A stretch of 64,000 nucleotides of DNA from Comamonas sp. (GTDB taxonomy: Bacteria; Pseudomonadota; Gammaproteobacteria; Burkholderiales; Burkholderiaceae_C), in contig JAITLR010000027.1 of NCBI GenBank assembly GCA_031277805.1, positions 186,001-250,000 of the forward strand, given 5' to 3'. Within the stretch, counting starts at the first letter, position 1, and every line of letters begins with the position of its first letter. Position numbers and translations under genes: made by a program. The notes below the pieces were generated by a model. That model made no database searches. It was not told where the DNA came from and saw only the letters and a program-made list of their open reading frames with translations. This document shows, one piece after another, positions 48,786 to 64,000 of the stretch.

Positions 48786-48815
48786 TTGTGGAGTGCCTCG
48801 CTGTTTTCCTATAAT
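48786..48815 (+). promoter_or_regulatory. Promoter of catabolic cluster part A
   Basis: TTGTGG and a perfect TATAAT (48810-48815) are 18 bases apart, about 85 bases upstream of the cupin gene. This is the best -10 box seen in the window. Confidence 0.65.
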
Positions 48816-48818
48816 CGT

Positions 48819-48848
48819 TTCACTAAATGAACTGTGTTTCATTAGAAA
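48819..48848 (+). promoter_or_regulatory. Probable operator pair just downstream of the -10 box (IclR-type candidate)
   Basis: Two palindromes lie right after the TATAAT: TTCACTAAATGAA (48819-48831) and TTTCATTAGAAA (48837-48848). Blocks of the same sequence (CACTAAA, ACTG-TGTTTCA, GAAAAA) recur upstream of the part B operon at 54333-54367. Position after the promoter suggests repression. The two IclR regulators encoded in the cluster are the natural candidates. Confidence 0.5.
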
Positions 48849-48898
48849 AACAAAAGCCTTGGGCTTTTGCCATGTGTCAGCGGTTACAGGAGAGATAA

Positions 48899-49429
48899 AT
48901 GACGGACTCCACACAGAACACCCCCCGCAGCTGGGACCAGCCCGAAGGCACCAGCTTTGAAGACTGGATGACTTCGCGCGTCGCGCGCTTTTCCACGCGC
49001 AAGTACGACTTCGACGCGCTGAAGTTCCAGGCCGATTTCGACCCCAAGTACCGCCGCGGCCAGATGCGCTACATCGGTACTGGCGGCACGGGCGTGGCTG
49101 CTGACAGCAACACCATCCCCTCGGAAAACTTCACTTTCTCCACCATGGTGATCCCTGCCGGGCATGAAGGTCCGTCGCACCTGCACACCGACGTCGAGGA
49201 AGTGTTCTTCGTGATGCGCGGCAAGCTCAAGCTGGTGCTCGAGAAGGATGGCCAGCGCTTCGAAACCATCCTGACCGACCGCGACGTGGTTTCCGTGCCG
49301 CCCGGCGTATACCGCGAAGAGATCAATATCGGCGACGAAGACGCGCTGATGTGCGTGATGCTGGGCGCCAAGAAGCCCGTCACCCCGACCTATCCGCCCG
49401 AGCACCCTCTGGCCAAGATCAAGCGCTGA
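48899..49429 (+). CDS. Cupin-domain protein, first gene of catabolic cluster part A
   Basis: Function unknown; cupins in catabolic operons include dioxygenases, isomerases and hydrolases. The 176-residue product has cupin motif 1 as GHEGPSHLHTDVEEVFFVMRG (His94, His96, Glu100/101; written in part as PSHLHTDVEEVFFVMRG). Motif 2 is VSVPPGVYREEIN, in which Arg139 takes the place of the usual metal-binding His. A clean GGAGAG site precedes the ATG. The alpha/beta hydrolase gene begins 8 bases after its stop, so the two are an operon. Confidence 0.85.
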   Translation: MTDSTQNTPRSWDQPEGTSFEDWMTSRVARFSTRKYDFDALKFQADFDPKYRRGQMRYIGTGGTGVAADSNTIPSENFTFSTMVIPAGHEGPSHLHTDVEEVFFVMRGKLKLVLEKDGQRFETILTDRDVVSVPPGVYREEINIGDEDALMCVMLGAKKPVTPTYPPEHPLAKIKR

Positions 49430-49437
49430 GCCAGGCC

Positions 49438-50301
49438 ATGACACAGGACACGCTGTCCCTCAAGGTGCAGCAGCTGGAGAGCGCATTTCCCGAGCGGCTG
49501 GTGCAGTTGCCGGATGGCTCCCAGGTCGCCTGGCGCGAGGCTGGTGACACAGATGCCGAGTTTGCCGTCGTGCTGCTGCACGGCATCAGCTCCGGCTCGG
49601 CATCGTGGCTGGATGTGGCGCGGCCGCTGAGCGACAAGGTGCGCGTGCTGGCCTGGGACGCCCCGGGCTACGGCATATCCACGCCGCTGGCGCAGCCTGC
49701 ACCTCTTGACGCCGACTATGCCCGGTCGCTGGCCCGGTCCCTGAGCGTTCTGGGCGTGCGCCGCTGCATTCTGGTCGGCCACTCGCTGGGTGCGCTGATG
49801 GCGGCCAAACTGGCCTGCACGGACGCGTCCGGTCTGGTTGCGCAACTGGTGCTCATCAGCCCGGCAGGCGGCTATGGCGCGCCGGCCAAGGCCGAGCAGC
49901 AGGCCAAGGTACGCCAGGGGCGCCTGGCTTCGCTGGCCGAGAAAGGCGTTGCCGGTTTGGCCGCCGTGATCGACCAGCGGCTGGTATCGGCGGCAGCACC
50001 TGAGACGGTGCGTGAATGGGTGCGCTGGAACACGGCCCGCATGCAGTCGCCAGGCTATGCGCAGGCGGTGGAGCTGCTGTGCGGCAGCGATCTGGGGCAG
50101 GCGACCGGAAGGCTGTCCATGCCGGTGCAGGTCTGGGTGGGCGAGCATGACGTGGTCACGCCTCCTGCGGCTTGCAAGGCCTGGGCCGAGCTGCTGGGCG
50201 CCCACTACGGTACGCTAGCGGCCGCCGGCCATGCTTCACCCGTGGAACAACCAGGGGAGATTGTGCAGAGGCTGGCGTTCCTGCTGGACCACAGCGCCTG
50301 A
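49438..50301 (+). CDS. Alpha/beta-fold hydrolase
   Basis: A 287-residue hydrolase with intact triad: Ser116 in LVGHSLGALMA, Asp238 in GEHDVVTPP and His265 in AAGHASPVEQP. The oxyanion-loop motif is LLHGISSGSASW. It resembles meta-cleavage product hydrolases and esterases of aromatic pathways (MhpC/BphD-like fold group); the exact substrate cannot be told. It sits between the cupin and IclR genes with gaps of 8 and 20 bases, in the same operon. Confidence 0.86.
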   Translation: MTQDTLSLKVQQLESAFPERLVQLPDGSQVAWREAGDTDAEFAVVLLHGISSGSASWLDVARPLSDKVRVLAWDAPGYGISTPLAQPAPLDADYARSLARSLSVLGVRRCILVGHSLGALMAAKLACTDASGLVAQLVLISPAGGYGAPAKAEQQAKVRQGRLASLAEKGVAGLAAVIDQRLVSAAAPETVREWVRWNTARMQSPGYAQAVELLCGSDLGQATGRLSMPVQVWVGEHDVVTPPAACKAWAELLGAHYGTLAAAGHASPVEQPGEIVQRLAFLLDHSA

Positions 50302-50321
50302 TTCTTCACCTGCCGATAGCC

Positions 50322-51128
50322 ATGACCGACTCCGCCGAGATTTCGACCAACGACAACGACCGCTACACCGTGCCCGCGCTGGAACGCGGGCTGCGCCTGC
50401 TGGCTTGCTTCAGCCCGGCACAGCCCGTGTGGAGCGCTCCGGAACTGGCCCGCAGCCTGGAGCTACCACGCTCCACGGTGTTCCGTATGTTGACCACGCT
50501 CGAAAACTCGGGGTATCTGCAGCGCAGCGGCACCGAATACCGCCTCGGCCTGGCCGTGCTGCGCCTAGGCTACGACTATCTGTCGACCCAGCCGCTGGCG
50601 CAACTGGCCGAGCCGGTGCTGCAGGACCTGTGCGACGCGCTGGGCATGACCAGCAATCTGGCGCTGCGCGACGGTACTTCGATTGTCTATGTGGCGCGCA
50701 TCGCGCCGGCAGGTGCTTTTCAGGGCGCGGTGCGTGTGGGCTCGCGCTTGCCGGCCCATGCCACGGTGCTGGGGCGTGCCTTGCTGCAGGACATGGATGC
50801 TGTGCAATTGAGCGAGGTGTTCGGGGGGGATGAGCTGCCCCAGTTTTCCGAAAGCACGCCGCACAACGTCGATGAACTGCAGCGCCTGCTGGCCCAGGAC
50901 CGCGAGCGCGGCTATGCCATGGGCGAGGGCTTTTACGAACCCGGCGTCTCCAGCATTGCTGCGCCGGTGCGCGGCGGTGGCGGGAGAGTGGTGGCCGGTC
51001 TGGCCGTGGCCATTCCGTTCACGGAGCTGATGCCCGAAAAAACCCAGTTCTGGGTGCAACAGGTGCGCGAGGCGGCCGAGACTCTGTCCGGCCATCTGCG
51101 CCGGCAGCACCCGGATCTTTTGCGCTGA
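50322..51128 (+). CDS. IclR family transcriptional regulator (part A)
   Basis: Regulator of 268 residues. Winged helix-turn-helix: VPALERGLRLLACFSP, then LARSLELPRSTVFRMLTTLE and a wing ending EYRLGLAVLRLGYDYL. The effector domain (about 90-265) has SIVYVARIAP, VGSRLPAHATVLGRALL and GEGFYEPGVSSIAAPVRGG, a layout typical of IclR proteins that sense aromatic or short organic acids. It is a paralogue of the regulator at 55.2 kb. Start chosen at MTDSAEISTNDNDRY. Confidence 0.92.
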   Translation: MTDSAEISTNDNDRYTVPALERGLRLLACFSPAQPVWSAPELARSLELPRSTVFRMLTTLENSGYLQRSGTEYRLGLAVLRLGYDYLSTQPLAQLAEPVLQDLCDALGMTSNLALRDGTSIVYVARIAPAGAFQGAVRVGSRLPAHATVLGRALLQDMDAVQLSEVFGGDELPQFSESTPHNVDELQRLLAQDRERGYAMGEGFYEPGVSSIAAPVRGGGGRVVAGLAVAIPFTELMPEKTQFWVQQVREAAETLSGHLRRQHPDLLR

Positions 51129-51213: not shown

Positions 51214-52014
51214 ATGAAAAATATTGCATTGATTGGTTGCGGCGCGATTGGCTCCAGCGTTCTGGAGCTGCTGAGCGGTGATGCCCGGCTGCAGGTGCGC
51301 TGGGTGCTGGTGCCCGAGGCCAGCGCTGCGATTCAGGAAACCGTGGTGCGCCTTGCGCCGCAGGCGCAGATCCTGCCGGCGCTGCCCGCCGATGCCCGAC
51401 CCGACCTGGTGGTGGAGTGCGCGGGCCATGGCGCCATCGAGGAACATGTGCTGCCCGCGCTGGCACGCGGCATTCCCTCCGTGGTAGCGTCGATAGGCGC
51501 TCTGAGTGCACCCGGCATGGCCGAGCGCGTTCAGGCGGCGGCCGAGGCCGGCCAGACCCAGGTGCAGCTGCTGTCCGGCGCCATCGGTGGCATCGACGCA
51601 CTGGCCGCGGCCCGCGTGGGCGGGCTGGATGCTGTGGTCTACACGGGCCGCAAACCGCCCAAGGCCTGGAGCGGCACGCCGGCCGAGCAGGCCTGCGATC
51701 TGGCCAGCCTGACCGAGGCCTTCTGCATCTTCGAAGGCACGGCGCGTGAGGCGGCCCAGCTCTATCCCAAGAATGCCAATGTGGCGGCCACGCTGTCGCT
51801 GGCGGGCCTGGGCCTGGACAAGACCATGGTGCGTCTGTTCGCAGACCCGGCCGTTGACGAGAACGTGCACCACGTCGAGGCACGCGGCGCCTTCGGCTCC
51901 ATGGAGCTGACCATGCGTGGCAAGCCTTTGGCGGCCAACCCCAAGACCTCGGCGCTGACCGTGTACAGCGTGGTGCGCGCCGTGCTCAACAACGTGGCTT
52001 CGCTGGCCATCTGA
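51214..52014 (+). CDS. Aspartate dehydrogenase-like (NadX/DUF108) oxidoreductase
   Basis: Two-domain NAD(P)-dependent dehydrogenase of 266 residues, starting MKNIALIGCGAIGSSVLELL (Rossmann GxGxxG). The aspartate dehydrogenase family segment YPKNANVAATLSLAGLGLD is present, as are EARGAFGSMELTMRGKPLAANPKTS and LTVYSVVRAVLNNV near the C-terminus. Known members oxidise L-aspartate to iminoaspartate. In a catabolic cluster it may act on another amino or imino acid. An AGGAA site lies 7 bases upstream. Confidence 0.85.
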   Translation: MKNIALIGCGAIGSSVLELLSGDARLQVRWVLVPEASAAIQETVVRLAPQAQILPALPADARPDLVVECAGHGAIEEHVLPALARGIPSVVASIGALSAPGMAERVQAAAEAGQTQVQLLSGAIGGIDALAAARVGGLDAVVYTGRKPPKAWSGTPAEQACDLASLTEAFCIFEGTAREAAQLYPKNANVAATLSLAGLGLDKTMVRLFADPAVDENVHHVEARGAFGSMELTMRGKPLAANPKTSALTVYSVVRAVLNNVASLAI

Positions 52015-52227: not shown

Positions 52228-53226
52228 ATGCAACGTTCCGCATTCCTCAAGTCCTGCCTGGCGCTGGCTTGCACGGCCGTGCTGCCTGCCGCCATGTCAC
52301 CGGCGTTGGCAGCCGGTGCTGCCGAGCAGCTGTCCAGCGGCCAGTTCACCATCATTGCGCCGTTCCCCGCCGGCGGTGCGGTGGACATCCTTTCCCGCAT
52401 CCTGGCCACGGGTCTGACCGAGGAGTACAAGCAGGCCGCCATCGTGGACAACCGTCCCGGCGCCAACGGCAACATCGGCATCGACATGGTCAAGCGTGCC
52501 AAGCCCGACGGCCACACGCTGTTGGTCGTGCCCCAGGGCAATCTGACCATCAACCCCACGCTGATGCCCAAGCTGCCCTACAACGTGTTCGGCGATTTCG
52601 TGCCCGTGGCTTCCATGGGCCGTGCGGCCAATGTGATCGCCGTCAATCCCCAGGTGCCGGCCAAGACCATCCAGGAGCTGGTGGCACTGTCCAAGTCCAA
52701 GCCCGATTCGATCAGCTATGCCTCGCCCGGCGTGGGCTCCAGCCTGCATCTGGCCGGCGAGCTGTTCAAGGACAAGTCGGGCGCCGACATCATGCATGTG
52801 GCCTACAAGGGCTCGGGCCAGGGCCTGAACGATGCCCTGGGCGGCAGCATTCCCATGCTGATTGCCAACATGCCCACCGTGCTGCCCCATGTGCAGTCGG
52901 GCAAGCTGCGCGCCCTGGCCGTGACCGATGCCGCGCGCTCGAGCTTCCTGCCCAATGTGCCGACCCTGGCCGAAGCCGGCATCCCTGGCATTGCCGTTTC
53001 CTCCTGGTATGGCGTGCTGGCGCCCAAGAACACACCGCCCGAAGTGGTCAGGCAGCTGGCCGAGGACATCGACAAGGTCATGAAGACCCAGGCCGCGCAG
53101 AACCAGCTCAAGGCACAGGGCATGACGCCCTGGGTGGTCAAGGGCGATGCCTTTGGCGAGCTGATTCGCAAGGAGACGGTGTTGTGGGCGCCCGTGGTCA
53201 AGAGTCACCACATCGTGGCGCAGTAA
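52228..53226 (+). CDS. Bug/TctC-family receptor in catabolic cluster part A
   Basis: Periplasmic substrate receptor of 332 residues with a Sec signal ending SPALA-AGA. Family motifs are IIAPFPAGGAVDILSRIL, VDNRPGANGNIGIDMVK, YASPGVGSSLHLAGELFKD, AYKGSGQGLNDALGG and WYGVLAPKNTPPEVV. GAGGAG lies upstream. Tripartite transporter membrane genes are absent, so it may sense or deliver the cluster's substrate to a transporter encoded elsewhere. A second Bug gene lies in part B. Confidence 0.9.
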   Translation: MQRSAFLKSCLALACTAVLPAAMSPALAAGAAEQLSSGQFTIIAPFPAGGAVDILSRILATGLTEEYKQAAIVDNRPGANGNIGIDMVKRAKPDGHTLLVVPQGNLTINPTLMPKLPYNVFGDFVPVASMGRAANVIAVNPQVPAKTIQELVALSKSKPDSISYASPGVGSSLHLAGELFKDKSGADIMHVAYKGSGQGLNDALGGSIPMLIANMPTVLPHVQSGKLRALAVTDAARSSFLPNVPTLAEAGIPGIAVSSWYGVLAPKNTPPEVVRQLAEDIDKVMKTQAAQNQLKAQGMTPWVVKGDAFGELIRKETVLWAPVVKSHHIVAQ

Positions 53227-53322: not shown

Positions 53323-54060
53323 ATGACCATCGCCATTCTCAGTGCTCTTGCCGAAGAACAACACGGCCTGGTGGACGCCATGGAGGACATGCAAAGCCAG
53401 CGCCACGCGGGGCGCGACTTCTGGCTGGGCCGGCTGCATGGGCATGAGGTGGTGTGCGCGCTCTCGGGCATCGGCAAGGTGGCCGCGGCCACCACCACGG
53501 CGGCGCTGATCGAGCGCTTTGGCGTGCGCGCCATCGTGTTCACCGGCGTGGCCGGCGGCATAGGGCAGGGCGTGAATGTGGGCGACGTGGTGATCGCGCG
53601 CCAGTTCCTGCAGCACGACATGGACGCTTCGCCGATCTTTCCGCGTTGGGAAATACCGGGCTATGGCTGCAGCACGCTGGCCTGCGATGGAGCGATGACG
53701 GATCGCCTGGTGCAGGCGGCAGCCTCCGCAGTCCAGGCCGGCATCGTGGCCTCCCACGCGTCAGCCCGCGTGCATGAAGGGCTGATCGCCAGCGGCGACC
53801 AGTTCGTCAGTTCGCGCCAGGCCAGCGACCGCCTGCGTACCGAGCTGCAGGTCGCGAGCCACCATGTGCTGGCCGTGGAGATGGAAGGAGCCGCCGTGGC
53901 CCAGACCTGCTTCGACTACGGCGTGCCTTTTGCGGCCATGCGCACCATCTCGGACCGCGCCGACGACAGCGCCCATGTCGACTTCTCCGAATTCGTGCGC
54001 ACCGTGGCCAGCCGCTACGCCCAGCTGGTGGTGTCGGACTTTCTGCGCCAGCTGCGCTGA
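53323..54060 (+). CDS. 5'-methylthioadenosine/S-adenosylhomocysteine nucleosidase-like protein
   Basis: A 245-residue PNP/UDP phosphorylase-fold hydrolase starting MTIAILSALAEEQHGLV. MTAN features are GIGKVAAATTTAALIERFG, FTGVAGGIGQGVNVGDVV, the Glu-bearing substrate motif AVEMEGAAVAQ and ISDRADDSAHVDF with the catalytic Asp. Normally it removes adenine from MTA and SAH (mtnN). Its place inside a catabolic operon is unusual, and it may be a diverged member. It is followed by a terminator. Confidence 0.87.
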   Translation: MTIAILSALAEEQHGLVDAMEDMQSQRHAGRDFWLGRLHGHEVVCALSGIGKVAAATTTAALIERFGVRAIVFTGVAGGIGQGVNVGDVVIARQFLQHDMDASPIFPRWEIPGYGCSTLACDGAMTDRLVQAAASAVQAGIVASHASARVHEGLIASGDQFVSSRQASDRLRTELQVASHHVLAVEMEGAAVAQTCFDYGVPFAAMRTISDRADDSAHVDFSEFVRTVASRYAQLVVSDFLRQLR

Positions 54061-54401: not shown

Positions 54402-55178
54402 ATGACCATGAACACCACGCATCTCACCGGCCAGCTCGCAGGGCGCCGGATTCTCGTGACCGGTGCCGCTCGCGGCCTGGGTTTTGCCTTTGCACAGACG
54501 CTGTGCACGCAGGGAGCACAGGTCGTGCTCGCCGATCTGCGTGAAGAGCTGCTGGCCCAGGCCGTGGAGCAACTGCGCGCCCAGGGCCTGCAAGCCCACG
54601 GCGTGGCTTTCGATGCCTGCAACCCGGCTTCCATCGAGCACTGCGCGCAACGGGCTGTGCAGTGGCTGGGCGGCCTCGACGGTCTGGTCAACAACGCTGC
54701 CGTCACCGACTCGGGCGGCAAGGGCATGGACGACATCGCCATCGAAAAGTGGGACCAGGTGATGAACGTCAACGTGCGCGGCGTCTGGCTGATGACGCGC
54801 GCCTGCCGCGCCGCGCTGCGTGACAGCGGCCGCGGCGCCGTGGTCAACCTGGCCTCCGACACCGCGCTGTGGGGCGCTCCCAACCTGATGGCCTATGTGG
54901 CCAGCAAGGGGGCCGTGATGGCCATGACCCATTCCCTGGCCCGCGAAATGGGCGGCGACAACGTCACCGTCAACGCCGTGGCACCCGGCCTGGTGCTGGT
55001 GGAGGCCACTGAGTACGTGCCCGAGCACCGCCACCGTCTCTACATCGACCAGCGCGCGCTGCAGCGCGAGCAGGGTCCCGAGGATGTCTCGGGCGCCGTG
55101 TCCTATCTGCTGTCGGACGGCGCACGTTTCGTGACGGGCCAGGTGCTGCCCGTCAATGGCGGCTTCGTCATGAACTGA
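54402..55178 (+). CDS. Short-chain dehydrogenase/reductase, classical
   Basis: NAD(P)-dependent oxidoreductase of 258 residues with an intact classical site: TGAARGLG (20-27), NNAA (98-101), Asn125, Ser152, Tyr165 and Lys169 (YVASK). Asp45 after the second strand (LADLR) suggests NAD. Typically it oxidises a secondary alcohol or dihydrodiol-like substrate. It is the first gene of part B, with the IclR gene 13 bases downstream. A Met at residue 3 is an alternative start. Confidence 0.92.
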   Translation: MTMNTTHLTGQLAGRRILVTGAARGLGFAFAQTLCTQGAQVVLADLREELLAQAVEQLRAQGLQAHGVAFDACNPASIEHCAQRAVQWLGGLDGLVNNAAVTDSGGKGMDDIAIEKWDQVMNVNVRGVWLMTRACRAALRDSGRGAVVNLASDTALWGAPNLMAYVASKGAVMAMTHSLAREMGGDNVTVNAVAPGLVLVEATEYVPEHRHRLYIDQRALQREQGPEDVSGAVSYLLSDGARFVTGQVLPVNGGFVMN

Positions 55179-55191: not shown

Positions 55192-56049
55192 ATGAGCGAC
55201 AACGACAACGTTTCCACCGACAACGGCTCCGACAAGTACATGGTGCCCGCACTGGAGCGCGGCCTACGCCTGCTGCAGGAGTTCGGCCGTGACCATGCCA
55301 CGCTGGGGGCGCCCGAGCTGGCACGCCGCCTGCAGCTGCCGCGCGCCACGGTGTTCCGCATGCTCAACACGCTGGAGAGCATGGGCTTTCTGCAGCGCGC
55401 CGAGGGCGGCAACGACTACCGGCTGGGCCTGTCCGTGCTGCGTCTGGGCTTCGAGTTCCTGTCTTCCATGGACCTGACCGAGCTGGGCCAGCCCGTGATC
55501 GCGCGGCTGTGCGATGAGATCCGCTTTCCCTGCAACATTGTGGTGCGTGACGGCCGCTCCATCGTCTACGTGGCCAAGGTCACGCCGCCGACGCCGCTGA
55601 CCAGCTCGGTGCGCGTGGGCACGCGCCTGCCTGCCCATGCCACGTTGCTGGGCCGCATCCTGCTGGCGGACCTGTCGCTGCCGGAGCTGCGCGCCCTCTA
55701 TCCCGAAGAGCATCTGGAAGGCCATTCGCCCAAGACGCCGGGCACCGTGCTCGACCTGTTCAACTTGGTCCAGGCCGATCGCGAGCGCGGCCATGTCGCA
55801 GGCGCCGGCTTCTACGAAAGCTCGATCTCTACCGTCGCTGCACCCGTGCGCGATCACAGCGGCCGCGTTGTCGCGGCCCTGGGCGTGACCCTGGCCTCGG
55901 CCCAGATCGATCTGGAGCGCCAGGCACAACTGGTGCCGCGCGTATGTGCTGCAGCCGACGAACTGTCGGAACTGCTCAACTACCGGCCGCAGTCCAGCGC
56001 GCAGGTTCTGTCCATCACCTCACGGCGCGCAGGAGGCGGCCATGCATGA
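55192..56049 (+). CDS. IclR family transcriptional regulator (part B)
   Basis: Regulator of 285 residues, similar along its length to the part A regulator: VPALERGLRLLQEFGR against VPALERGLRLLACFSP, LPRATVFRMLNTLES against LPRSTVFRMLTTLEN, VGTRLPAHATLLGRILL against VGSRLPAHATVLGRALL. The wHTH is at about 17-85 with the effector domain after it. Its 3' end overlaps the next gene by eight bases. It probably recognises the sequence blocks shared by both promoter regions. Confidence 0.92.
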   Translation: MSDNDNVSTDNGSDKYMVPALERGLRLLQEFGRDHATLGAPELARRLQLPRATVFRMLNTLESMGFLQRAEGGNDYRLGLSVLRLGFEFLSSMDLTELGQPVIARLCDEIRFPCNIVVRDGRSIVYVAKVTPPTPLTSSVRVGTRLPAHATLLGRILLADLSLPELRALYPEEHLEGHSPKTPGTVLDLFNLVQADRERGHVAGAGFYESSISTVAAPVRDHSGRVVAALGVTLASAQIDLERQAQLVPRVCAAADELSELLNYRPQSSAQVLSITSRRAGGGHA

Positions 56050-56842
56050 CTTCAAACTTGATGCCACGGCCGTCGTCACCGGTGGCTCCTCGGGCATAGG
56101 CCTGGCCACGGTGGAGCTGCTGCTGGCCCAGGGCGCACGCGTGGCCCTGTGCGGCCGCAACCCCGAGCGTCTGGAGCAGGCCGTCAAGCAGTTGCTGGAG
56201 CTTCATCCCGAAGCTGGCGCGCGCCTGTTCGCACAGGCCTGCGACGTGCTCGATGCCGAGCAGGTGCAGCAGTTCGCACGCGCCAGCGAAGCGGCCCTGG
56301 GCCCGGCTTCCATCCTGATCAACAACGCAGGCCAGGGCCGCGTCTCCACCTTCGAGAACACCACGGATGAAGCGTGGACCGAGGAGCTGCACCTGAAGTT
56401 CTTCTCGGTGCTGCATCCCACACGCGCCTTTCTGCCGCAGCTCGAGCGCAACGAAGGCTCGGCCATCGTCTGCGTGAATTCGCTGCTCGCTTCCCAGCCC
56501 GAGCCGCACATGGTCGCCACCTCGGCCGCGCGTGCCGGCCTCAAGAACCTGGTGCGTTCCATGGCCACCGAGTTCGCGCCCAAGGGCATACGCGTCAACG
56601 GCATCCTGGTCGGCCTGATCGAGTCCGGCCAGTGGCGCCGCCGCTTCGAGGCCCGCGAGGACAAGAGCCAGACCTGGGAGCAGTGGAGCGGCGCGCTCGC
56701 AAGCACAAAGCACATCCCCATGGGGCGCCTTGGCAAGCCCGCCGAAGCGGCCCGCGCCATTTTCTTTCTTGCCACGCCACTGTCGTCGTACACGACGGGC
56801 AGCCACATCGACGTTTCCGGAGGCCATTCTCGCCATGCCTAA
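56042..56842 (+). CDS. Atypical SDR-family protein lacking the catalytic Tyr and Lys
   Basis: A 266-residue Rossmann protein with a good cofactor motif TGGSSGIG (13-20), NNAG (94-97) and Ser147. The residues at the classical Tyr and Lys positions are Thr160 and Arg164 (ATSAARAGLKNL); the Ser-to-Tyr spacing of 13 is kept, so the alignment is firm. It may have lost normal redox chemistry or use another mechanism. It is translationally coupled on both sides (8-base overlaps with the IclR and ThDP genes), so it is probably needed in the pathway. Confidence 0.88.
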   Translation: MHDFKLDATAVVTGGSSGIGLATVELLLAQGARVALCGRNPERLEQAVKQLLELHPEAGARLFAQACDVLDAEQVQQFARASEAALGPASILINNAGQGRVSTFENTTDEAWTEELHLKFFSVLHPTRAFLPQLERNEGSAIVCVNSLLASQPEPHMVATSAARAGLKNLVRSMATEFAPKGIRVNGILVGLIESGQWRRRFEAREDKSQTWEQWSGALASTKHIPMGRLGKPAEAARAIFFLATPLSSYTTGSHIDVSGGHSRHA

Positions 56843-58529
56843 GCAAAATCAAATCACCGTGGGCGCTGCCGTCGCCGAATTCCTCGAGCATTGCGATGTG
56901 AAGGCCGCCTTCGGGGTGATCTCCATCCACAACATGCCCATCCTCGATGCCATGTTTGCGCGCGGCAAGGTCCGCTTCGTGATGGCGCGCGGCGAGGCCG
57001 GCGCCGGCAACATGGCCGACGCCTGCGCCCGTTCCACCTCCAGCCTGGGCGTGTGCATCACCAGCACCGGCCCGGCCTCCGGCAACATCGCCGGCAGCCT
57101 GGTCGAGGCCTACACGGCCGGCACGCCGCTGCTGCACATCACGGGCCAGATCGAGACCCAGTACCTGGACAAGAAGCTCTCGTACATCCACGAGGCGCCG
57201 GACCAGCTGACCATGCTGAAGGCCGTCTCCAAGGCCGCCTTCCGCGTGCTGAGCGCCGAGACCTGCCTGTCCACCTTGAAGGCCGCCGTGCAGGCCGCCA
57301 TGACCGCGCCCACGGGCCCGGTGAGCGTGGAGATTCCTATCGACATCCAGCAAAGCGTGATCGACATGCCCACCGACTGGGCACCGCTGCCGCTGGCCGT
57401 GCTGGCCCCGAGCGAGGCCTCGCTGGACGCGCTGGCCGAGCAGTTGGCCCAGGCACGTCGCCCCCTGCTGTGGCTGGGCGGCGGCGCACGCCACGCCGGC
57501 GCGGCCGTGCAGCGCCTCAAGGCCATGGGCTTTGGCATCGTCAGCACCGGCCAGGGCCGAGGCATCGTGCCCGAGGACGATCCTGCCTCGCTGGGCGCCT
57601 ACAACATCCAGAAGCCTGTCGAGGCCTTCTACCAGCGCTGCGACGCCATGCTGGCCGTGGGCACGCGCCTGCGCAGCAACGAAACGCTGAAGTACGAACT
57701 CAAGCTGCCGCGCCCGCTGCTGCGCATCGATGTGGACGCCGCCCAGCAAGGCCGCTGCTATGTGGATGACGGCTTTGTCTGCGGCGACTCGGCCCTGGCC
57801 CTGACCGGCCTGGCCGACCGCCTGGAAGCCCGCGGCTACAAGGCCGACTCCGAGCTGCTGGTTGACCTGCGCCGCACGCACGAGGAAGTCGTCGCCACCA
57901 TGCGCGACGGCCTGGGTCCATACAGCACCCTGGTGCAGCAGCTGCAGCAGGTGGTGGGCCGCAAGTTCAACTGGGTGCGCGACGTGACCGTCTCCAACAG
58001 CACCTGGGGCAACCGCGAGCTGCGCTTCTTCGAGCCCAACGCCGGCGTGCACGCCACGGGCGGCGGCATCGGCATGGGCATGCCCATGGCCATCGGTGCG
58101 GCCATCGGCGCAGCCGAAAGCGGCTCGGGCCGCAAGACCCTGGGCCTGGCCGGCGACGGCGGCTTCATCCTGAACCTGGGCGAACTCGCCACGCTGGTGC
58201 AGGAAGAGTGCGACACCATGATCGTGCTGATGAACGACCAGCGCTACGGCGTGATCCAGAACATTCAGGATGCCTCCTACGGCGGCCGCCGCTGCTATGT
58301 GGAGCTGCACACGCCCGACTACGCCCAGCTGTGTGCCTCCATCAAGCTGCCCCATGCCCGCGTGAGCAACCTCGATGAGCTGCCCGCCGTGCTGGAAGGT
58401 GCCTGGAGCAAGAAGGGCCCCTTCCTGCTGGAGATCGACATGCGCGCCATCGGCAGCTTCAAGACCACGTTCTCCGGCCCTCCGGTGAACAAGCTCGACC
58501 AGATCCCGGCCACCACCAAGGCTCAGTGA
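56835..58529 (+). CDS. Thiamine-diphosphate-dependent enzyme (benzoylformate decarboxylase / acetolactate synthase family)
   Basis: A 564-residue ThDP enzyme: N-terminal PYR domain with the activating Glu54 in MARGEAGAGNMADACAR, a central domain with WLGGGARHAGAA, and the C-terminal PP domain with GDG at 440-442 and Asn467 (26 residues after the Asp, as required). Family members decarboxylate 2-oxoacids or join them. With an aldehyde dehydrogenase gene 11 bases downstream, decarboxylation of a 2-oxoacid to an aldehyde is the most natural reading; the substrate is unknown. Confidence 0.88.
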   Translation: MPKQNQITVGAAVAEFLEHCDVKAAFGVISIHNMPILDAMFARGKVRFVMARGEAGAGNMADACARSTSSLGVCITSTGPASGNIAGSLVEAYTAGTPLLHITGQIETQYLDKKLSYIHEAPDQLTMLKAVSKAAFRVLSAETCLSTLKAAVQAAMTAPTGPVSVEIPIDIQQSVIDMPTDWAPLPLAVLAPSEASLDALAEQLAQARRPLLWLGGGARHAGAAVQRLKAMGFGIVSTGQGRGIVPEDDPASLGAYNIQKPVEAFYQRCDAMLAVGTRLRSNETLKYELKLPRPLLRIDVDAAQQGRCYVDDGFVCGDSALALTGLADRLEARGYKADSELLVDLRRTHEEVVATMRDGLGPYSTLVQQLQQVVGRKFNWVRDVTVSNSTWGNRELRFFEPNAGVHATGGGIGMGMPMAIGAAIGAAESGSGRKTLGLAGDGGFILNLGELATLVQEECDTMIVLMNDQRYGVIQNIQDASYGGRRCYVELHTPDYAQLCASIKLPHARVSNLDELPAVLEGAWSKKGPFLLEIDMRAIGSFKTTFSGPPVNKLDQIPATTKAQ

Positions 58530-58540: not shown

Positions 58541-60016
58541 ATGGCTAACCTAGAACTGCTCCCTATCAATATCGCCGGCGAATGGCGCCTGGGCGGCGGC
58601 GACGAAACCGCCACGCTCTACCCCGCCAACGGCGAGGTGGTGGGCCGCCTGCGCGCGCCCAGCCTGGCCGATGTGGAAGAGGCCATCCAGAAAGCCGACC
58701 ACGCTTTCCGCACCAGCGGCTGGGCCCAGAAGAAGCCCCATGAGCGCGCCGCCGTGCTGTACCGCATCGCCCAGCTGATCCGCGAGCGCGCCGAGCCCCT
58801 GGCCCAGCTGCAGCGCCTGGACAACGGCAAGCCCATCAAGGAAACGCGTGCGCTGGTGGCCAGCGCCGCCGGCACCTTCCAGTACTTCGCGGCGGCCTGC
58901 GAAACCATGGAAGAGACCCTCACGCCTTCGCGCGGCGACTTCATGACCATGAGCGTCTACGAGCCCATGGGCGTGGTCGCGGCCATAACGCCGTGGAACT
59001 CGCCGATTGCCAGCGAGGCGCAAAAGCTCGCCCCCGCGCTGGCGGCCGGCAACGCCGTGGTCGTCAAGCCCGCCGAAGCCACGCCGCTGCTGGCGCTGGA
59101 GCTGGCCAGGATCTGCGAAGAAGCGGGTGTTCCCAAGGGCATCGTCAGCGTGCTGCCCGGCCGCGGCTCGGTGATTGGCGACGCCATCACCAAGCACCCG
59201 CTGGTCAAGCGCGTGTCGTTTACCGGCGGCACCTCCACCGGCAAGCACATCGCCCGCATCGCGGCCGACAAGATGATGCCGGTCTCGCTGGAGCTGGGCG
59301 GCAAGTCGGCCACCATGGTGCTGGCCGATGCCGACCTGGACCACGCTGTCAACGGCGTGCTCTACGGCATCTTCAGTTCCTCGGGCGAATCCTGCATCGC
59401 GGGCTCGCGTCTATTTGTGGCGCGCAATCTCTACAGCGAGTTCATGCAACGCCTGACGGCCAAGGCCGCCGCGCTGAACGTGGGCGACCCGGCCGACGAG
59501 AACACCCAGATGGGCCCGCTTATCACGGCCAAGCACCGCGAATCCATCGAGAGCTATGTGGCGCTCGGCCTGTCCGAAGGCGGCAAGCTGCTTACCGGCG
59601 GCCACCGCCCCGAAGGCGCAGCGTTTGAGCGCGGCTACTACTACCGCCCGACCATCCTGGATGGCGTGCAGAACGACTGGCAGATCTGCCAGCAGGAAAT
59701 CTTCGGCCCCGTGCTCGTAGCCATGCCCTTCGACAACGAGGACGATCTGCTGGCCCAGGCCAACGACAGCGTCTATGCGCTGGCCGCGGGCATCTGGACG
59801 CGCGACTACAAGAGCGCCTGGCGCATCGGCCGTGCCGTGCAGGCCGGCACCGTGTGGATCAACACCTACAAGCAGTTCTCGATCTCCACGCCGTTCGGCG
59901 GCTGGCGCGACTCGGGCCTCGGCCGCGAGAAGGGCCGCATGGGCATCCAGCAGTACATGGAGCAGAAGAGCCTGTACTGGGGCCTCAACGAGGAGCCGCT
60001 CGCATGGGCTCGCTAG
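58541..60016 (+). CDS. NAD(P)-dependent aldehyde dehydrogenase
   Basis: A 491-residue dehydrogenase with all key residues: Asn153 in TPWNSP, Glu251 in LELGGKS, Cys285 in SSGESCIAGSR, and the FTGGTSTGKHI cofactor loop. The Cys context GESC differs from the usual GQxC. It oxidises an aldehyde, probably the product of the preceding ThDP enzyme, to the acid. A GAGGAG site lies 7 bases upstream. The MFS gene begins inside its last 13 bases. Confidence 0.95.
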   Translation: MANLELLPINIAGEWRLGGGDETATLYPANGEVVGRLRAPSLADVEEAIQKADHAFRTSGWAQKKPHERAAVLYRIAQLIRERAEPLAQLQRLDNGKPIKETRALVASAAGTFQYFAAACETMEETLTPSRGDFMTMSVYEPMGVVAAITPWNSPIASEAQKLAPALAAGNAVVVKPAEATPLLALELARICEEAGVPKGIVSVLPGRGSVIGDAITKHPLVKRVSFTGGTSTGKHIARIAADKMMPVSLELGGKSATMVLADADLDHAVNGVLYGIFSSSGESCIAGSRLFVARNLYSEFMQRLTAKAAALNVGDPADENTQMGPLITAKHRESIESYVALGLSEGGKLLTGGHRPEGAAFERGYYYRPTILDGVQNDWQICQQEIFGPVLVAMPFDNEDDLLAQANDSVYALAAGIWTRDYKSAWRIGRAVQAGTVWINTYKQFSISTPFGGWRDSGLGREKGRMGIQQYMEQKSLYWGLNEEPLAWAR

Positions 60017-61263
60017 AACGCTCTGAGCCAGGCCACAACCCCCGCCGCTGGTGGGGCGTGCTGGCACTGCTGTTCATCGTCACGATCGCCTATGTGGATC
60101 GGGTGAACATCTCGGTGCTGCTGGTCGACAAGGAGTTCCTGCAGGCGTTCGGCCTGGTCGGCGACCGGGTGGGACAGGGCGCGCTGATGACGCTGTTCCT
60201 GCTCGGCTACGGCGCGGCGGCCATGTTTCTGACGCCGTTCTATGAGTCCGTGCTGGGCTATCGCCGCGGCCTGATGGTCAGCCTGTTCGTCTGGGCCTTG
60301 CTGACAGCATTGGCGCCTATGGCCGGCTCGCTGTTCGCGCTGCTGGTGCTGCGCGTCCTGCTGGGTGCCAGCGAAGGGCCGCTGTTCTCGCTCAAGACCA
60401 TGTTCGTCCACGACAATTTTTCCGCGCAGCAGTGGGGCAAGCCCAACGCGGTCAGTTCGATGGGTGTTTCGCTGGGGCTGGCCGTGGGCTTTCCCTTGGT
60501 CAGCTATCTGCTGCGTTCGGGCGGCTGGGCCGAGTCTTTCCATGTGCTGGCTGCCATCAATCTGTTGCTGGGCCTGCCTCTGGTGTACTGGCTGATTCCC
60601 GCGCCACGGGCAGCAGCAACGCATCGTGCCAAGGCGGGTGCGCTGCAGGCTTTCCGTGAGGGACTGCAGACCCGGCATCTGGGGATGCTGCTGGTCATCG
60701 AGGTCTGCACGCTGGCTTATCTCTGGGGCAGCAGCGCCTGGTTGCCCGCATACCTGGTTGACGACAAAGGCTTCTCGGTCAGCACGATGGGCTGGGCTTC
60801 GTCGCTGCCCTTCATCGTGGGCCTGGCTGCGAACTTTTTGGGTGGCGTGCTGGCGGATGTCTTTCCCAAGCGGCTCACACCACTGATCTTCACATTGGGC
60901 GGAGTGTTGTGCGCGCTGTCCGTGCTGTTCCTGATCGGCAGCCGCAGCACGCCGGCGACCATGACTTTCCTGCTGCTGGCCAGTGCGTGCTGGGGCATCC
61001 AGGGTGCCTCCATCCCGACGCTGGTGCAGCGCTTTGCGCCCGCTGGCCGTGTCGGCAGTGCCTACGGCATCGTCAATGGCGTGGGCAATCTGGTTGCGGC
61101 CTTCATGCCGACGGCCATGGGCAGCCTGATGAAGACCCATGTGGCGGGCGGTTTTGCGCTGTTGGTCGTGTCGCAGGTGGGCGTCGCGTTGGGCGGTGCC
61201 TGGTTGAGCTGGAAGCAGTCGGCATCGGTTCTGGTCGAACCCGCCGATGGCGTGGCACGTTGA
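60004..61263 (+). CDS. MFS transporter, anion:cation symporter type
   Basis: Twelve-helix transporter of 419 residues, with IAYVDRVNISVLLVDKEF after the first helix as in the ACS family (transporters of hexuronates, phthalates and other organic acids). The duplicated halves are separated by a cytoplasmic loop (about 200-220). It probably imports the pathway's carboxylated substrate. Overlap with the aldehyde dehydrogenase gene and a 20-base gap to the next gene place it in the operon. Confidence 0.9.
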   Translation: MGSLERSEPGHNPRRWWGVLALLFIVTIAYVDRVNISVLLVDKEFLQAFGLVGDRVGQGALMTLFLLGYGAAAMFLTPFYESVLGYRRGLMVSLFVWALLTALAPMAGSLFALLVLRVLLGASEGPLFSLKTMFVHDNFSAQQWGKPNAVSSMGVSLGLAVGFPLVSYLLRSGGWAESFHVLAAINLLLGLPLVYWLIPAPRAAATHRAKAGALQAFREGLQTRHLGMLLVIEVCTLAYLWGSSAWLPAYLVDDKGFSVSTMGWASSLPFIVGLAANFLGGVLADVFPKRLTPLIFTLGGVLCALSVLFLIGSRSTPATMTFLLLASACWGIQGASIPTLVQRFAPAGRVGSAYGIVNGVGNLVAAFMPTAMGSLMKTHVAGGFALLVVSQVGVALGGAWLSWKQSASVLVEPADGVAR

Positions 61264-61283: not shown

Positions 61284-62258
61284 ATGAGCGTACTGGGTAT
61301 TGACGAAATCAGCTACGGCGCCGACGACCTGCCGGCCTGTCGCCAGTTCTTCCTCGACTGGGGCCTGAGCCTGGTCGACGAGCAGACCGGGCGGCTGGTG
61401 TTCGAGACGCTGAACGGCTGCCGCGTGATCGTGGCCGCCACCGACCATCCCGATCTGCCGCCCGCTATCGAGCCCGGCCCCACGCTGCGCGAGGTGGTCT
61501 GGGGCGTGGAAAGCGAAGCCGACCTGGCGCTGTATGCGGGCCGTATCGCTGAGCTGCCAGGCTTTGTTAAGCAGGGCGGCCCGAACGGCGGACGCATTGG
61601 CTGCACCGACCCCAACGGTCTGGCCGTGCGTCTGCAGCTCACGCAAAAGCGCGACGTGCAGATGCAAAGCGCCGAGTACAACACCTGGGACCGCAAGGGC
61701 CGCATCAACCAGGCCAGCCCGGCCTACGAGCGCGCCCAGCCCATCGAGGTCGGCCATGTGGTGTTCTTCGTCAAGGACGTGCAGGCCTGCGAGCGCTTCT
61801 ATGTCGAGAACTTCGGCTTCGCGGCCTCGGACCGCTACCCCGAGCGCGGCGCCTTCCTGCGCACCGCGCCCGACGGCGGCCACCACGACATCTTTTTGCT
61901 GCAGCGCCCCGACAAGCACGCCGGCCTGAACCATGTGGCCTTCACCGTGCGAGACATTCACGAGGTCTTCGGCGGCGGCATGCACATCTCGCGCTGCGGC
62001 TGGGACACCCAGCTCGGCCCGGGCCGCCACCCCGTGTCCTCGGCCTATTTCTGGTACTTCAAGAATCCGGCCGGTGCCCTGGTCGAGTACTACGCCGACG
62101 AGGACCAGCTGACGGCCGATTGGCAGCCGCGTGAGTTCGAGCCCGGCCCGACCGTGTTCGCCGAATGGGCGATCGACGGCGGCCTGGACGGCAACACCCG
62201 TCGCCAGAAGGGCGCAGGCGCTGCCGACGGCAAGTTCCTGACCGACAAAAAACATTGA
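61284..62258 (+). CDS. Type I extradiol dioxygenase-like (VOC) protein
   Basis: A 324-residue two-domain VOC protein. The C-terminal domain keeps the full 2-His-1-carboxylate site: His158 (VGHVVFFVKD), His217 (LNHVAFTVRD) and Glu268 (ALVEYY). The spacing of 59 and 51 residues is close to BphC (64 and 50). His201, His249 (GRHPVSS) and Tyr258 match second-shell residues of extradiol dioxygenases. So it probably opens a catechol-type ring beside the hydroxyls. The N-terminal domain lacks a metal site, as is usual. Confidence 0.87.
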   Translation: MSVLGIDEISYGADDLPACRQFFLDWGLSLVDEQTGRLVFETLNGCRVIVAATDHPDLPPAIEPGPTLREVVWGVESEADLALYAGRIAELPGFVKQGGPNGGRIGCTDPNGLAVRLQLTQKRDVQMQSAEYNTWDRKGRINQASPAYERAQPIEVGHVVFFVKDVQACERFYVENFGFAASDRYPERGAFLRTAPDGGHHDIFLLQRPDKHAGLNHVAFTVRDIHEVFGGGMHISRCGWDTQLGPGRHPVSSAYFWYFKNPAGALVEYYADEDQLTADWQPREFEPGPTVFAEWAIDGGLDGNTRRQKGAGAADGKFLTDKKH

Positions 62259-62326
62259 GAGACATTGGAAGCGCTGGCTGGCCGGTGCTTTCACCCACAA
62301 CGATTCCACAACCCACGGGCTATTCC

Positions 62327-63304
62327 ATGAAGAACATTCGTCGCCAGGTAGTTATCGCTGCTGCATTGCTGGCTGCAGCCCAGATGTCAGGCTCCGCGCT
62401 GGCGCAAGCCTTTCCTGCCAAGCCCATCACTCTCGTCGTAGCCTATCCGGCCGGCGGCGATACCGATGCCATGGCGCGCCTGTATGCAGAGAAGCTGTCC
62501 CAGCGCCTGGGTCAGCCCGTGGTGGTGGACAACCGGCCCGGTGCCAGCGGCACCATTGGCACCGTGCATGTGGCCAAGGCCGCGCCCGACGGCTACACGC
62601 TGCTGCTGGCGCCCAATACCTTTGCCATCGCCCAGTTCGTGCTCAAGACCAATGCGGGCTCGAGCTACGACGTGCTCAATGGCTTCACGCCTATCGTGCA
62701 GACCAGCGTGCAGCCCATGTTCGTGGCCACCAGCCAGAACTCAGGCATCAAGGACATCAAGGCGCTGGTGAGCCAGGGCAAGGGCGGCAATCTGACCTAT
62801 GCCAGCCCCGGCAGCGGCTCGCCCATGCACATCCTGGGCGAGATGTTCAACAAGGCTGCTGCTACCCGGCTCGGCCACATCCCCTACAAGGGCGTGGCGC
62901 CGGCCGTCAACGACCTGATCGGCGGCCATGTGCCCACGACCTTCATGACCTGGGGCCCGATCGCGCCTTACGCAGGCACCAAGGTCAACGTGCTGGCCGT
63001 GGCCGATGCCCAGCGCAGCACGCTGGCGCCCAACGTGCCCACGCTGGGCGAGCTGGGCATCAAGGACGTGGAAGTGTCGGCCTGGCAAGGCCTGTTCGGT
63101 CCCAAGGGCATGTCGCCCGAGACCGTGAAGCTGCTGAACACCCAGCTCAATGAAATTCTGAAGATGCCGGACGTGGTCTCCAAGATGGCCACCTTCGGCG
63201 CCTTGCCCGCGGGCGGCGAGCCGGCGCGTCTGGCCAAGACCAACGCCGCCGACTACAACCGCTTCGGCAAGCTGATCAAAGATCTCGGCATCCAGGCCGA
63301 CTGA
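62327..63304 (+). CDS. Bug/TctC-family receptor in catabolic cluster part B
   Basis: Periplasmic receptor of 325 residues with a signal peptide ending GSALAQA. Family motifs: LVVAYPAGGDTDAMARL, VDNRPGASGTIGTVHVAK, YASPGSGSPMHILGEMFN, PYKGVAPAVNDLIGG and WQGLFGPKGMSPETV. An Asp follows the PAGG loop (GGDTD), where ligand carboxylates bind in this family. No membrane subunits are adjacent. Compared with the part A receptor it is diverged, so the two may bind different compounds. Confidence 0.9.
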   Translation: MKNIRRQVVIAAALLAAAQMSGSALAQAFPAKPITLVVAYPAGGDTDAMARLYAEKLSQRLGQPVVVDNRPGASGTIGTVHVAKAAPDGYTLLLAPNTFAIAQFVLKTNAGSSYDVLNGFTPIVQTSVQPMFVATSQNSGIKDIKALVSQGKGGNLTYASPGSGSPMHILGEMFNKAAATRLGHIPYKGVAPAVNDLIGGHVPTTFMTWGPIAPYAGTKVNVLAVADAQRSTLAPNVPTLGELGIKDVEVSAWQGLFGPKGMSPETVKLLNTQLNEILKMPDVVSKMATFGALPAGGEPARLAKTNAADYNRFGKLIKDLGIQAD

Positions 63305-63328
63305 ACCGTTTTAGAAGGAGAACCCACC

Positions 63329-63550
63329 ATGGCTGTAGATCGATACCTCGAACCCCACCAGGCCCGCCAGCGTCCCGGCACGCTGTTCGAAGACCTGCTG
63401 GGCGACTCCATCGAGCGCGCCTTCGGCGAGGGCGTGCAGACGCTGCCCGAGCTGGTGGCCTATATCAACCGCAGCGGCCCCTCCGGCGAGAACGGCGAGG
63501 CCTGGACTGAACAGAGCTTCCAGGCGTTGATGGCGCGCCTGGGCCATTGA
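63329..63550 (+). CDS. Small protein resembling the helix-turn-helix segment of serine recombinases
   Basis: A 73-residue protein behind a GGAG site. Its C-terminal half (LPELVAYINRSGP, then GEAWTEQSFQALMARLGH) resembles the short helical domain found in large serine recombinases, where it precedes the DNA-contacting region. I recall such free-standing domains being annotated beside Rieske oxygenase genes; not checked. It carries no catalytic residues. It lies 24-25 bases from the Bug and Rieske genes, so it belongs to the operon. Confidence 0.7.
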   Translation: MAVDRYLEPHQARQRPGTLFEDLLGDSIERAFGEGVQTLPELVAYINRSGPSGENGEAWTEQSFQALMARLGH

Positions 63551-63575
63551 ACCGCGAGCAAGACAGGAGCGCCCC

Positions 63576-64000
63576 ATGAACGTACAAACCATCACCATCG
63601 ATCCGGTGGACCGTCTGCTCAACCAGGGCCTGAAGAACCTTTGGTACGCGGTCTGCCCCTCCGACTTCGTGAAGACCGAGCCCGTCTCGCTGCGCCGCTT
63701 CGGCCGCAAGATCGCGCTGTGGCGCGATGCCTCTGGCCAGGTCCACGCGCTGGAAGACCACTGCCCGCACCGCGGCGCGCCGCTGTCCCAGGGCGTGAAC
63801 CTGGGCGACCGGCTGGCCTGCCCTTACCACGGCGTGGAAGTGCGCTGCGACGGCACCGTGACCAAGGTGCCCGGCAGCCCCGGCTGCAAGCTCGAAGGCT
63901 CGCGCGCCGCGCTGGACTTCCATGTACACGAAGCCCATGGCGCGATCTTCCTCTACAACAGCGACAAGCATGTGGACGAGGCACCGGCCTTCACGCTGCC
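63576..64000 (+). CDS. Rieske non-heme iron oxygenase alpha subunit (partial, N-terminus only)
   Basis: The frame starts MNVQTITIDPVDRLLNQGLK behind AGGAG and runs off the right edge after about 141 residues. The Rieske [2Fe-2S] site is complete: Cys63-x-His65 in CPHRGAPLS and Cys82-x2-His85 in CPYHGVEV. The layout fits phthalate 4,5-dioxygenase/vanillate demethylase-like single-component alpha subunits. The mononuclear iron site lies beyond the window. A reductase gene would be expected downstream. Confidence 0.9.
   Translation, partial: MNVQTITIDPVDRLLNQGLKNLWYAVCPSDFVKTEPVSLRRFGRKIALWRDASGQVHALEDHCPHRGAPLSQGVNLGDRLACPYHGVEVRCDGTVTKVPGSPGCKLEGSRAALDFHVHEAHGAIFLYNSDKHVDEAPAFTL

Follow-up and report, generated by a model that had tools for sequence, protein, structure and literature searches.

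The bacterial breakdown of kynurenate through the 'quinoline' pathway (EC 1.14.99.2, 1.3.1.18 and 1.13.11.10) is known from enzymes that were described biochemically around 1960, and it was studied in Pseudomonas acidovorans, now Delftia. The pathway needs an oxygenase, a dihydrodiol dehydrogenase, an extradiol dioxygenase, a reductase, a 2-oxo acid decarboxylase and an aldehyde dehydrogenase (ALDH). No assignment of genes to it was found among the matches listed in the open-licence literature, subscription journals being outside the scope of this search. In this study, we analysed a 64,000-base stretch of Comamonas sp. DNA (the window; bases 186001-250000 of the 290681-base contig JAITLR010000027.1, in a genome of 4.16 Mb), in which all genes between 48899 and 64000 lie on the plus strand and form a catabolic cluster with candidates for all these functions. 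Its eight core genes encode a Rieske oxygenase, two short-chain dehydrogenases/reductases (SDR1 and SDR2), a vicinal oxygen chelate (VOC)-superfamily extradiol dioxygenase, an alpha/beta hydrolase, a thiamine diphosphate (ThDP)-dependent enzyme, an L-aspartate dehydrogenase (AspDH) and an ALDH. In our view, the cluster probably serves the breakdown of an N-heteroaromatic that is benzo-fused, carboxylated at C2 and oxygenated at C4. The most likely substrate is kynurenate, which would make these the genes of the quinoline pathway, with xanthurenate and quinaldate entering it in some lineages. This likeness is one on paper, and the ring opening and iminosuccinate handling proposed below are our own extension of the described pathway.

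Other described systems resemble the cluster in part. The meta-cleavage pathways (bph, cat, hpa) share with it the Rieske oxygenase, SDR, VOC extradiol enzyme and alpha/beta hydrolase, whereas the cluster adds the ThDP enzyme, AspDH and an atypical SDR, and no hydratase/aldolase was seen in it. Other matches lead to enzymes of vitamin B6 degradation pathway I. SDR1 is close to its pyridoxal 4-dehydrogenase (3ndr, 157 bits), while the matches to its core enzymes AAMS hydrolase and MHPCO are distant: the hydrolase is weakly like the former (3kxp), and a flavin adenine dinucleotide (FAD) monooxygenase present in some clusters is more weakly like the latter. By analogy, the two may have similar end-game chemistry on a pyridine ring, but the vitamin B6 pathway is not known to include a Rieske, extradiol, ThDP or AspDH reaction. 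Nicotinate catabolism is likewise not known to involve a Rieske, VOC, ThDP or AspDH enzyme; its NicC is the closest solved structure to the accessory FAD monooxygenase, a gene that the window cluster does not have.

The set also resembles the P. aeruginosa genes PA3504-PA3511, whose order we take to be SDR1-cupin-hydrolase-IclR-SDR2-ThDP-AspDH-ALDH. The loci L135-L142 have a core order like this one, followed by VOC, Rieske and reductase genes. Compared with them, the window cluster has Bug receptors and two IclR genes and is without RidA and an NMT1-type ATP-binding cassette (ABC) receptor; RidA is also missing from L138, unlike the other loci of this group. The best solved match of SDR2 is 3lf1/3lf2 ('Short Chain Oxidoreductase Q9HYA2', E 1.5e-122), presumably PA3507. 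Together with the order in L135-L142 and pieces of the set in P. aeruginosa phage records, this match bears out the partial likeness to PA3504-PA3511 pointed out in an earlier note on this DNA. The phage records (OQ572407.1 and OQ572404.1; L144 and L145) are unverified 'Pseudomonas phage' entries with P. aeruginosa as host, and they contain hydrolase, cupin, SDR1 and ABC receptor genes, and reductase and RidA genes, arranged as in clusters from the genus of genome G286 (presumed Pseudomonas). One stretch from that genus gave a 79% DNA match over 30% of its length to the host-like DNA of such a record. These host-like catabolic stretches are probably contamination.

The conservation of the set was examined in loci collected by a ThDP-seeded scan with one genome per species (79 loci), to which 14 plasmid loci, two further loci, the G208 stretch and the window were added to give 97 scored loci. 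The main count was made on the 72 loci of at least 19 kb, and 25 shorter loci were omitted. A gene was scored as present when tblastn gave a match with E <=1e-6 over at least 35% of the query; matches were assigned by best score, and another SDR could pass for SDR1 in single loci. The scan used peptide patterns taken from the ThDP enzyme of the window itself, which biases the sample towards close relatives. All eight core genes were found in 66 of the 72 loci, in alpha-, beta- and gammaproteobacteria, and the core matches had a median span of 11.7 kb. Six of these families (Rieske, SDR1, VOC, SDR2, ThDP and ALDH) correspond to steps of the quinoline pathway, SDR2 being the putative reductase, and they occur there jointly with AspDH and the hydrolase. 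Counted singly, the ThDP gene was present in all 72 loci, SDR2 in 71, VOC, hydrolase, ALDH and AspDH in 70 each, SDR1 in 69 and the Rieske gene in 68. Six loci (L026, L053, L068, L090, L091 and L094) were short of the full core. L068 was rejected as a Rieske-less locus, as only the locus end is involved and the Rieske gene lies just beyond it. L094 (Variovorax) was rejected as a true member, since it has a ThDP paralogue without most other core genes; it was retained in the locus counts and dropped from the alignments.

Gene order varies between lineages. SDR1 adjoins the Rieske gene in 35 of the 67 loci with both (core genes only counted), and AspDH lies between the ThDP and ALDH genes in 56 of 70 loci. 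The latter position speaks for one pathway rather than for the two sub-units into which the genes had been divided. The pairwise identities of the eight families correlate over 77 loci (r 0.83-0.92; seven loci whose rows were bad or paralogous had been removed first, and common descent contributes to these values, as there was no control family). The redox partners of the Rieske oxygenase vary (a PDR-type reductase, a ferredoxin with an FAD reductase, or an FAD protein with a flavodoxin), as expected of a true multi-component Rieske oxygenase. Of 398 genomes sampled from the phylum, 15 had the ThDP gene at E 1e-90, indicating that it is sporadic in the phylum. In the genus of G286, it was present in 11 of 149 genomes, and the full core set was found in 8 of 8 neighbourhoods examined (L135-L142). 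Named records that carry the set come from Comamonas, Delftia, Caballeronia, Klebsiella, Acinetobacter and marine alphaproteobacteria; among them are Comamonas testosteroni ATCC 11996 and the Delftia strains D. acidovorans NBRC 14950 (L011) and D. tsuruhatensis NBRC 16741 (L019). The cluster is a conserved one and more than a chance association. What can be regarded as established is which enzyme families it encodes, that their catalytic residues are kept and that the families are conserved together.

In the residue alignments, which contain the window sequence twice, the Rieske cluster ligands C63, H65, C82 and H85 (CxH/CxxH) were kept in 95 of 96 rows, and N169, H175, H180 and D296, which include the 2-His-1-Asp iron site, in all 96. 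The Rieske protein has a VanA-type C domain, and PF00355 and PF19112 exceed their cut-offs. The VOC triad H158-H217-E268 was found in 93 of 99 rows, together with second-sphere H201, H249 and Y258. Among the six other rows, L015 is clipped by the locus end and five were mis-cut during extraction; in these five open reading frames the motifs are whole in four and partial in L078. ALDH keeps E251 and C285 in 94 of 94 rows, the ThDP enzyme keeps E54 in 103 of 104, and the hydrolase keeps the triad S117-D239-H266 in 96 of 96. SDR1 has S152, Y165 and K169. In the SDR2 family, T160 and R164 are each found in 101 of 103 rows in place of the classical SDR Tyr-Lys pair; the protein scores 451.5 bits with NF005468 (cut-off 266). 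The catalytic centre of the 3lf1/3lf2 protein has reportedly been termed atypical. The ThDP enzyme scores 890 bits with NF005470 (cut-off 495), placing it in the PRK07064 equivalog, a model that names no reaction. AspDH, which consists of two domains (PF03447 and PF01958), scores 474.7 bits with NF009827 (cut-off 226) and so scores as a full aspartate dehydrogenase by the curated model; the family named previously was right, while the suffix '-like' can be dropped. In the comparison with NCBIfam equivalogs that carry a named aromatic substrate, VOC and Rieske were far below and ALDH was below the cut-offs, in agreement with the earlier view that no named aromatic pathway matches this set. For VOC, this holds for all four curated extradiol models compared (HpaD, catechol 2,3-dioxygenase, BphC and HsaC).

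From these families we infer the substrate, the step order and all intermediates of the following scheme. The Rieske oxygenase and its reductase would convert kynurenate to its 7,8-dihydrodiol, which SDR1 would oxidise to 7,8-dihydroxykynurenate, and the VOC enzyme would then catalyse 8,8a-extradiol cleavage to 5-(3-carboxy-3-oxopropenyl)-4,6-dihydroxypicolinate. SDR2 may reduce the side-chain double bond of this ring-fission product, the ThDP enzyme would decarboxylate the 2-oxo acid to 5-(2-formylethyl)-4,6-dihydroxypicolinate, and ALDH would oxidise the formylethyl aldehyde to the 5-(2-carboxyethyl) acid. Up to this acid, the scheme follows the older literature: in that of Hayaishi and Behrman, the side chain is likewise said to be reduced, decarboxylated to the aldehyde and oxidised. 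When the benzo ring of a fused heteroarene undergoes extradiol cleavage, a 2-oxo acid side chain remains, and a fused-ring catechol would thus account for a ThDP decarboxylase and an ALDH that act after the extradiol enzyme. In our extension, the cupin and the hydrolase would open and hydrolyse the pyridine ring to iminosuccinate (N1, C2 with its carboxyl, C3 and C4 by atom mapping) and glutarate (C5, C6 and the side chain). AspDH would convert iminosuccinate to L-aspartate, and RidA, where present, would hydrolyse the imine. Through the NicC-like FAD monooxygenase of some clusters, xanthurenate, which already bears the 8-hydroxyl group, may enter at this VOC step as well. The roles of SDR2, the cupin and the hydrolase are the least certain assignments.

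AspDH is the main clue to the substrate, because it requires a C4 amino or imino diacid and a pyridine with a 2-carboxyl and a 4-oxygen would yield iminosuccinate. As 4,6-dihydroxypicolinate maps onto iminosuccinate and glutarate, the presence of both AspDH and RidA would be explained. Assays of the AspDHs from Delftia sp. Cs1-4 and K. pneumoniae showed a preference for oxaloacetate/aspartate, with pyruvate and 2-oxoglutarate giving 2-4% (PMC5554190). The Delftia and Klebsiella clusters carry AspDH genes, which may or may not encode the assayed proteins. Among the proposed intermediates, 5-(2'-carboxyethyl)-4,6-dihydroxypicolinate is named in print as a tryptophan/kynurenine metabolite, while 7,8-dihydroxykynurenate and 5-(3'-carboxy-3'-oxopropyl)-4,6-dihydroxypicolinate appeared only as compound names in a plant-hormone database table. 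According to a review (PMC11354673), certain pseudomonads convert kynurenate to glutamate, alanine and organic acids.

Accessory genes point in the same direction. Of the 97 loci, 32 have the FAD monooxygenase, whose best solved match is 6-hydroxynicotinate 3-monooxygenase (3e-74), and 10 have RidA, of the imine deaminase family, which is also found in 7 of the 8 further loci L135-L142. L090 and L029 have a molybdenum (Mo)-hydroxylase in the neighbourhood of the set; in L026, one comes immediately after VOC and the FAD monooxygenase. The nearest match of that in L090 is 4-hydroxybenzoyl-CoA reductase, followed by 6-hydroxypseudooxynicotine dehydrogenase and quinoline 2-oxidoreductase among others, so that several substrates are conceivable for it. 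The NicC-like hydroxylase, the Mo-hydroxylases and RidA favour, as judged by family, an N-heteroaromatic substrate. No Rieske match was found in the 3.0 Mb draft genome of L026, nor on the plasmid of L091 (Vibrio), and both have the FAD monooxygenase; the simple reading of this is two alternative routes to one catechol. L090 is plasmid pNK84 of Caballeronia sp. NK8, on which a partial set (Rieske, ThDP and VOC) accompanies a three-subunit Mo-hydroxylase and a CoxG-like protein; a full cluster is found on another plasmid of this strain, pNK83 (L097). We give about even chances to the fuller proposal that the cluster is a complete, previously unassigned set for the mineralisation of kynurenate (and xanthurenate), with a Thr/Arg SDR as the reductase, an AspDH that captures iminosuccinate, and two upper branches (Rieske and SDR1, or the NicC-like FAD monooxygenase with or without the Mo-hydroxylase) that converge on one extradiol enzyme.

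The same accessory genes could be read differently, with kynurenate at most as an intermediate or analogue and some other pyridine carboxylate, fused or substituted, as the substrate, for example quinaldate, 8-hydroxyquinaldate or a quinolone acid from plants or microbes. The Mo-hydroxylase genes near L090, L029 and L026 and the NicC-like hydroxylase would suit upstream azaarene entry reactions, and sequence cannot specify a substrate. However, a Mo-hydroxylase match occurs in 5 of 97 loci only, two of them 27% identical, and since 66 of 72 loci combine Rieske and SDR1 with the other core genes, the common substrate probably already bears the ring oxygen that AspDH implies. We regard this alternative as unlikely, though it is the one that survives best. 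It is improbable that the cluster serves ordinary meta cleavage of a benzenoid aromatic acid followed by hydrolysis, with ThDP, ALDH and AspDH on unrelated tasks. The Rieske, SDR, extradiol and alpha/beta hydrolase genes do make up a standard upper and meta-cleavage set, and VOC resembles HpaD and catechol 2,3-dioxygenase. However, no 2-hydroxypentadienoate hydratase/aldolase was found in the window or in the annotated plasmid clusters (the plasmid gene table is incomplete, and such genes could lie elsewhere), ThDP, ALDH and AspDH are conserved as much as the oxygenases, and RidA and AspDH would be without a role on a nitrogen-free ring.

It is very improbable that AspDH is a mere passenger of an aromatic set, serving aspartate/nitrogen or polyhydroxyalkanoate metabolism. 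A paper on the physiological functions of Ralstonia eutropha AspDH exists, as a title in a reference indicates, but AspDH occurs in 70 of the 72 loci, mostly between ThDP and ALDH as described above, and its identities vary in step with those of the other families (r 0.83-0.91). Least credible of all is a 2-aminomuconate-type route for an aminophenol or 3-hydroxyanthranilate, in which the cupin would be the dioxygenase that cleaves the ring and RidA would remove the amino group. The outline of such pathways does suit the cupin, ALDH and RidA families, but the cupin matches only Cupin_2, Cupin_1 and FdtA in Pfam and no 3-hydroxyanthranilate dioxygenase family, its solved-structure matches are a quercetinase, an oxalate oxidase and an unnamed cupin, the annotations of the plasmid clusters examined include no 2-amino-3-carboxymuconate semialdehyde (ACMS) or oxalocrotonate decarboxylase, and Rieske, VOC, ThDP and AspDH are left without explanation.

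Several observations weigh against kynurenate breakdown as the function. No kynurenine-pathway gene was seen inside any cluster. In the phylum sample, tryptophan 2,3-dioxygenase (TDO) was present in 10 of the 15 ThDP carriers and in 98 of the 383 non-carriers (Fisher p 0.0013), an association that is confounded by lineage and leaves 5 of the 15 carriers without TDO. Among 40 chosen carrier genomes, 32 had TDO, never within a cluster. A TDO-kynureninase pair ca. 13 kb from the ThDP gene in G208 was rejected as linkage, with unrelated DNA-repair and sugar-kinase genes between. Glutarate-use genes, whose linkage is a prediction from our atom mapping and not a literature-defined feature of the pathway, were not linked to the cluster; they may be located in other parts of these genomes. 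In LB, a kynU mutant of P. aeruginosa builds up kynurenate to 100 uM (PMC4938989), which counts here because this species seems to hold parts of the set. No biochemical data on VOC, Rieske or ThDP members were found in the literature searched. As for ring opening, the hydrolase model (predicted local distance difference test (pLDDT) score 95.8) has a generic esterase/enol-lactonase fold, with AAMS hydrolase only at rank 41 of the Foldseek list, so its proposed role is a guess. The cupin model is poor (pLDDT 72.1), and Arg139 occupies the position of the fourth metal ligand that is usual in the cupin motif, making a standard cupin dioxygenase role doubtful. The other site residues (HxHxxxE; H94, H96, E100 and E101) are kept in 20 of 20 aligned sequences, and the best solved match is a weak one to QueD quercetinase. 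The small cupin is present in 35 of the 72 loci and a two-domain cupin of similar general type (L093:18440-19387 and homologues) in 21, with both in none and neither in 16; judged by this distribution, the latter seems to replace the former.

Three other candidates for linkage were rejected. A weak TDO match in the genome of L018 (G405) lies on a contig other than that of L018. A CoA-transferase/acyl-CoA dehydrogenase pair in L099 scored under the curated glutarate and glutaryl-CoA cut-offs and had no close match in other clusters. An aminotransferase near L092 and L063 was considered for the transamination of kynurenine; the one at L092 is a Cys/Met-type pyridoxal phosphate enzyme beside ectoine-type transporters.

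The genes of the cluster are listed in Table 1. Family matches bear out the enzyme content and direction given in the earlier note, as well as its two IclR regulators and two Bug receptors, whereas the sixteen genes it counted are 15, namely 14 complete genes and the start of the Rieske gene. As it had anticipated, extension to the right revealed the oxygenase reductase and the end of the cluster: the Rieske gene is completed and followed by the reductase, a porin and a major facilitator superfamily (MFS) transporter up to about 68014, and a minus-strand CorA gene comes next. By the ThDP protein, the nearest named relatives are a metagenome-assembled genome labelled Roseateles and Comamonas records (94-95% identity).

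Table 1. Positions of the cluster genes in the window and just past its right end (roles are proposals).
Feature	Position	Strand	Basis and remarks
Small cupin, 176 aa	48899..49429	+	Pfam Cupin_2; proposed ring-opening or ring-processing step
Alpha/beta hydrolase	49438..50301	+	Pfam; proposed C-C or amide hydrolysis after ring opening
IclR-type regulator 1	50322..51128	+	PcaR/PcaU/PobR is the nearest curated model, under its cut-off
L-aspartate dehydrogenase (AspDH)	51214..52014	+	NF009827; proposed target iminosuccinate from the pathway
Bug/TctC periplasmic receptor 1	52228..53226	+	PF03401
Methylthioadenosine/S-adenosylhomocysteine (MTA/SAH) nucleosidase	53323..54060	+	NF004079, 289.6 bits (cut-off 169)
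SDR1, canonical Ser-Tyr-Lys	54402..55178	+	Proposed dihydrodiol dehydrogenase
IclR-type regulator 2	55192..56049	+	Family profile match
SDR2, atypical (Thr-Arg for catalytic Tyr-Lys)	56042..56842	+	NF005468; proposed side-chain C=C reductase
ThDP-dependent enzyme, PRK07064 family	56835..58529	+	NF005470; proposed 2-oxo acid decarboxylase
Aldehyde dehydrogenase (ALDH)	58541..60016	+	PF00171; E251/C285
MFS transporter	60004..61263	+	PF07690
VOC-superfamily extradiol dioxygenase	61284..62258	+	Triad H158-H217-E268
Bug/TctC periplasmic receptor 2	62327..63304	+	Family profile match
Rieske oxygenase alpha subunit	63576..64000, on to 64601 (L003:576-1601)	+	PF00355 and PF19112 over cut-off
Reductase beyond the window	to 65557 (L003:1598-2557)		After the Rieske gene, same contig
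Porin and MFS transporter beyond the window	to about 68014		After the reductase; cluster end

From SDR1 through VOC, neighbouring genes overlap or lie at most 20 bases apart, and the gaps that flank the MTA/SAH nucleosidase gene are larger (93 and 341 bases); five start codons were placed 3 bases off in the list of intergenic gaps. Terminator-like hairpins were found at 48715-48730, 53264-53284 and 54245-54263 (14 such matches in all; 9.0 expected), the last two on either side of the nucleosidase gene. Since it is flanked by these hairpins, the nucleosidase gene probably stands by itself, and transcription probably proceeds in two units or more. The gene is present in 11 of 97 loci, and it was rejected as a pathway gene on account of this count and its position between hairpins; it is probably independent and outside the pathway. 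Its PADLOC matches were weak, look like a shared phosphorylase fold and were rejected. The 'good promoter' claimed for the cluster was not recovered by a scan of 48600-64000 for the sigma-70 consensus, which gave 0 sites (mean of shuffles, 1.4), and nothing in 43000-64000 matched Rfam. Elsewhere, a protein of ca. 100 aa with an HTH_62 domain ('recombinase-like helix-turn-helix') is encoded near the cluster head (L093:4669-4971; homologues in 38 of 94 loci), and a pentapeptide-repeat protein (L093:17657-18250; 39 of 94 loci) occurs with the flavodoxin and FAD reductase in many clusters.

If the proposal that the cluster breaks down kynurenate is true, the enzymes of the quinoline pathway, known biochemically since around 1960, would gain their genes. 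Kynurenate is a tryptophan product that signals in animals and is a ligand of the aryl hydrocarbon receptor (PMC4938989), and bacteria that consume it would become recognisable from their genomes. The finding could also assign a catabolic role to aspartate dehydrogenases, which have so far been known mainly as in vitro activities, and to the atypical SDR of solved structure (3lf1/3lf2).

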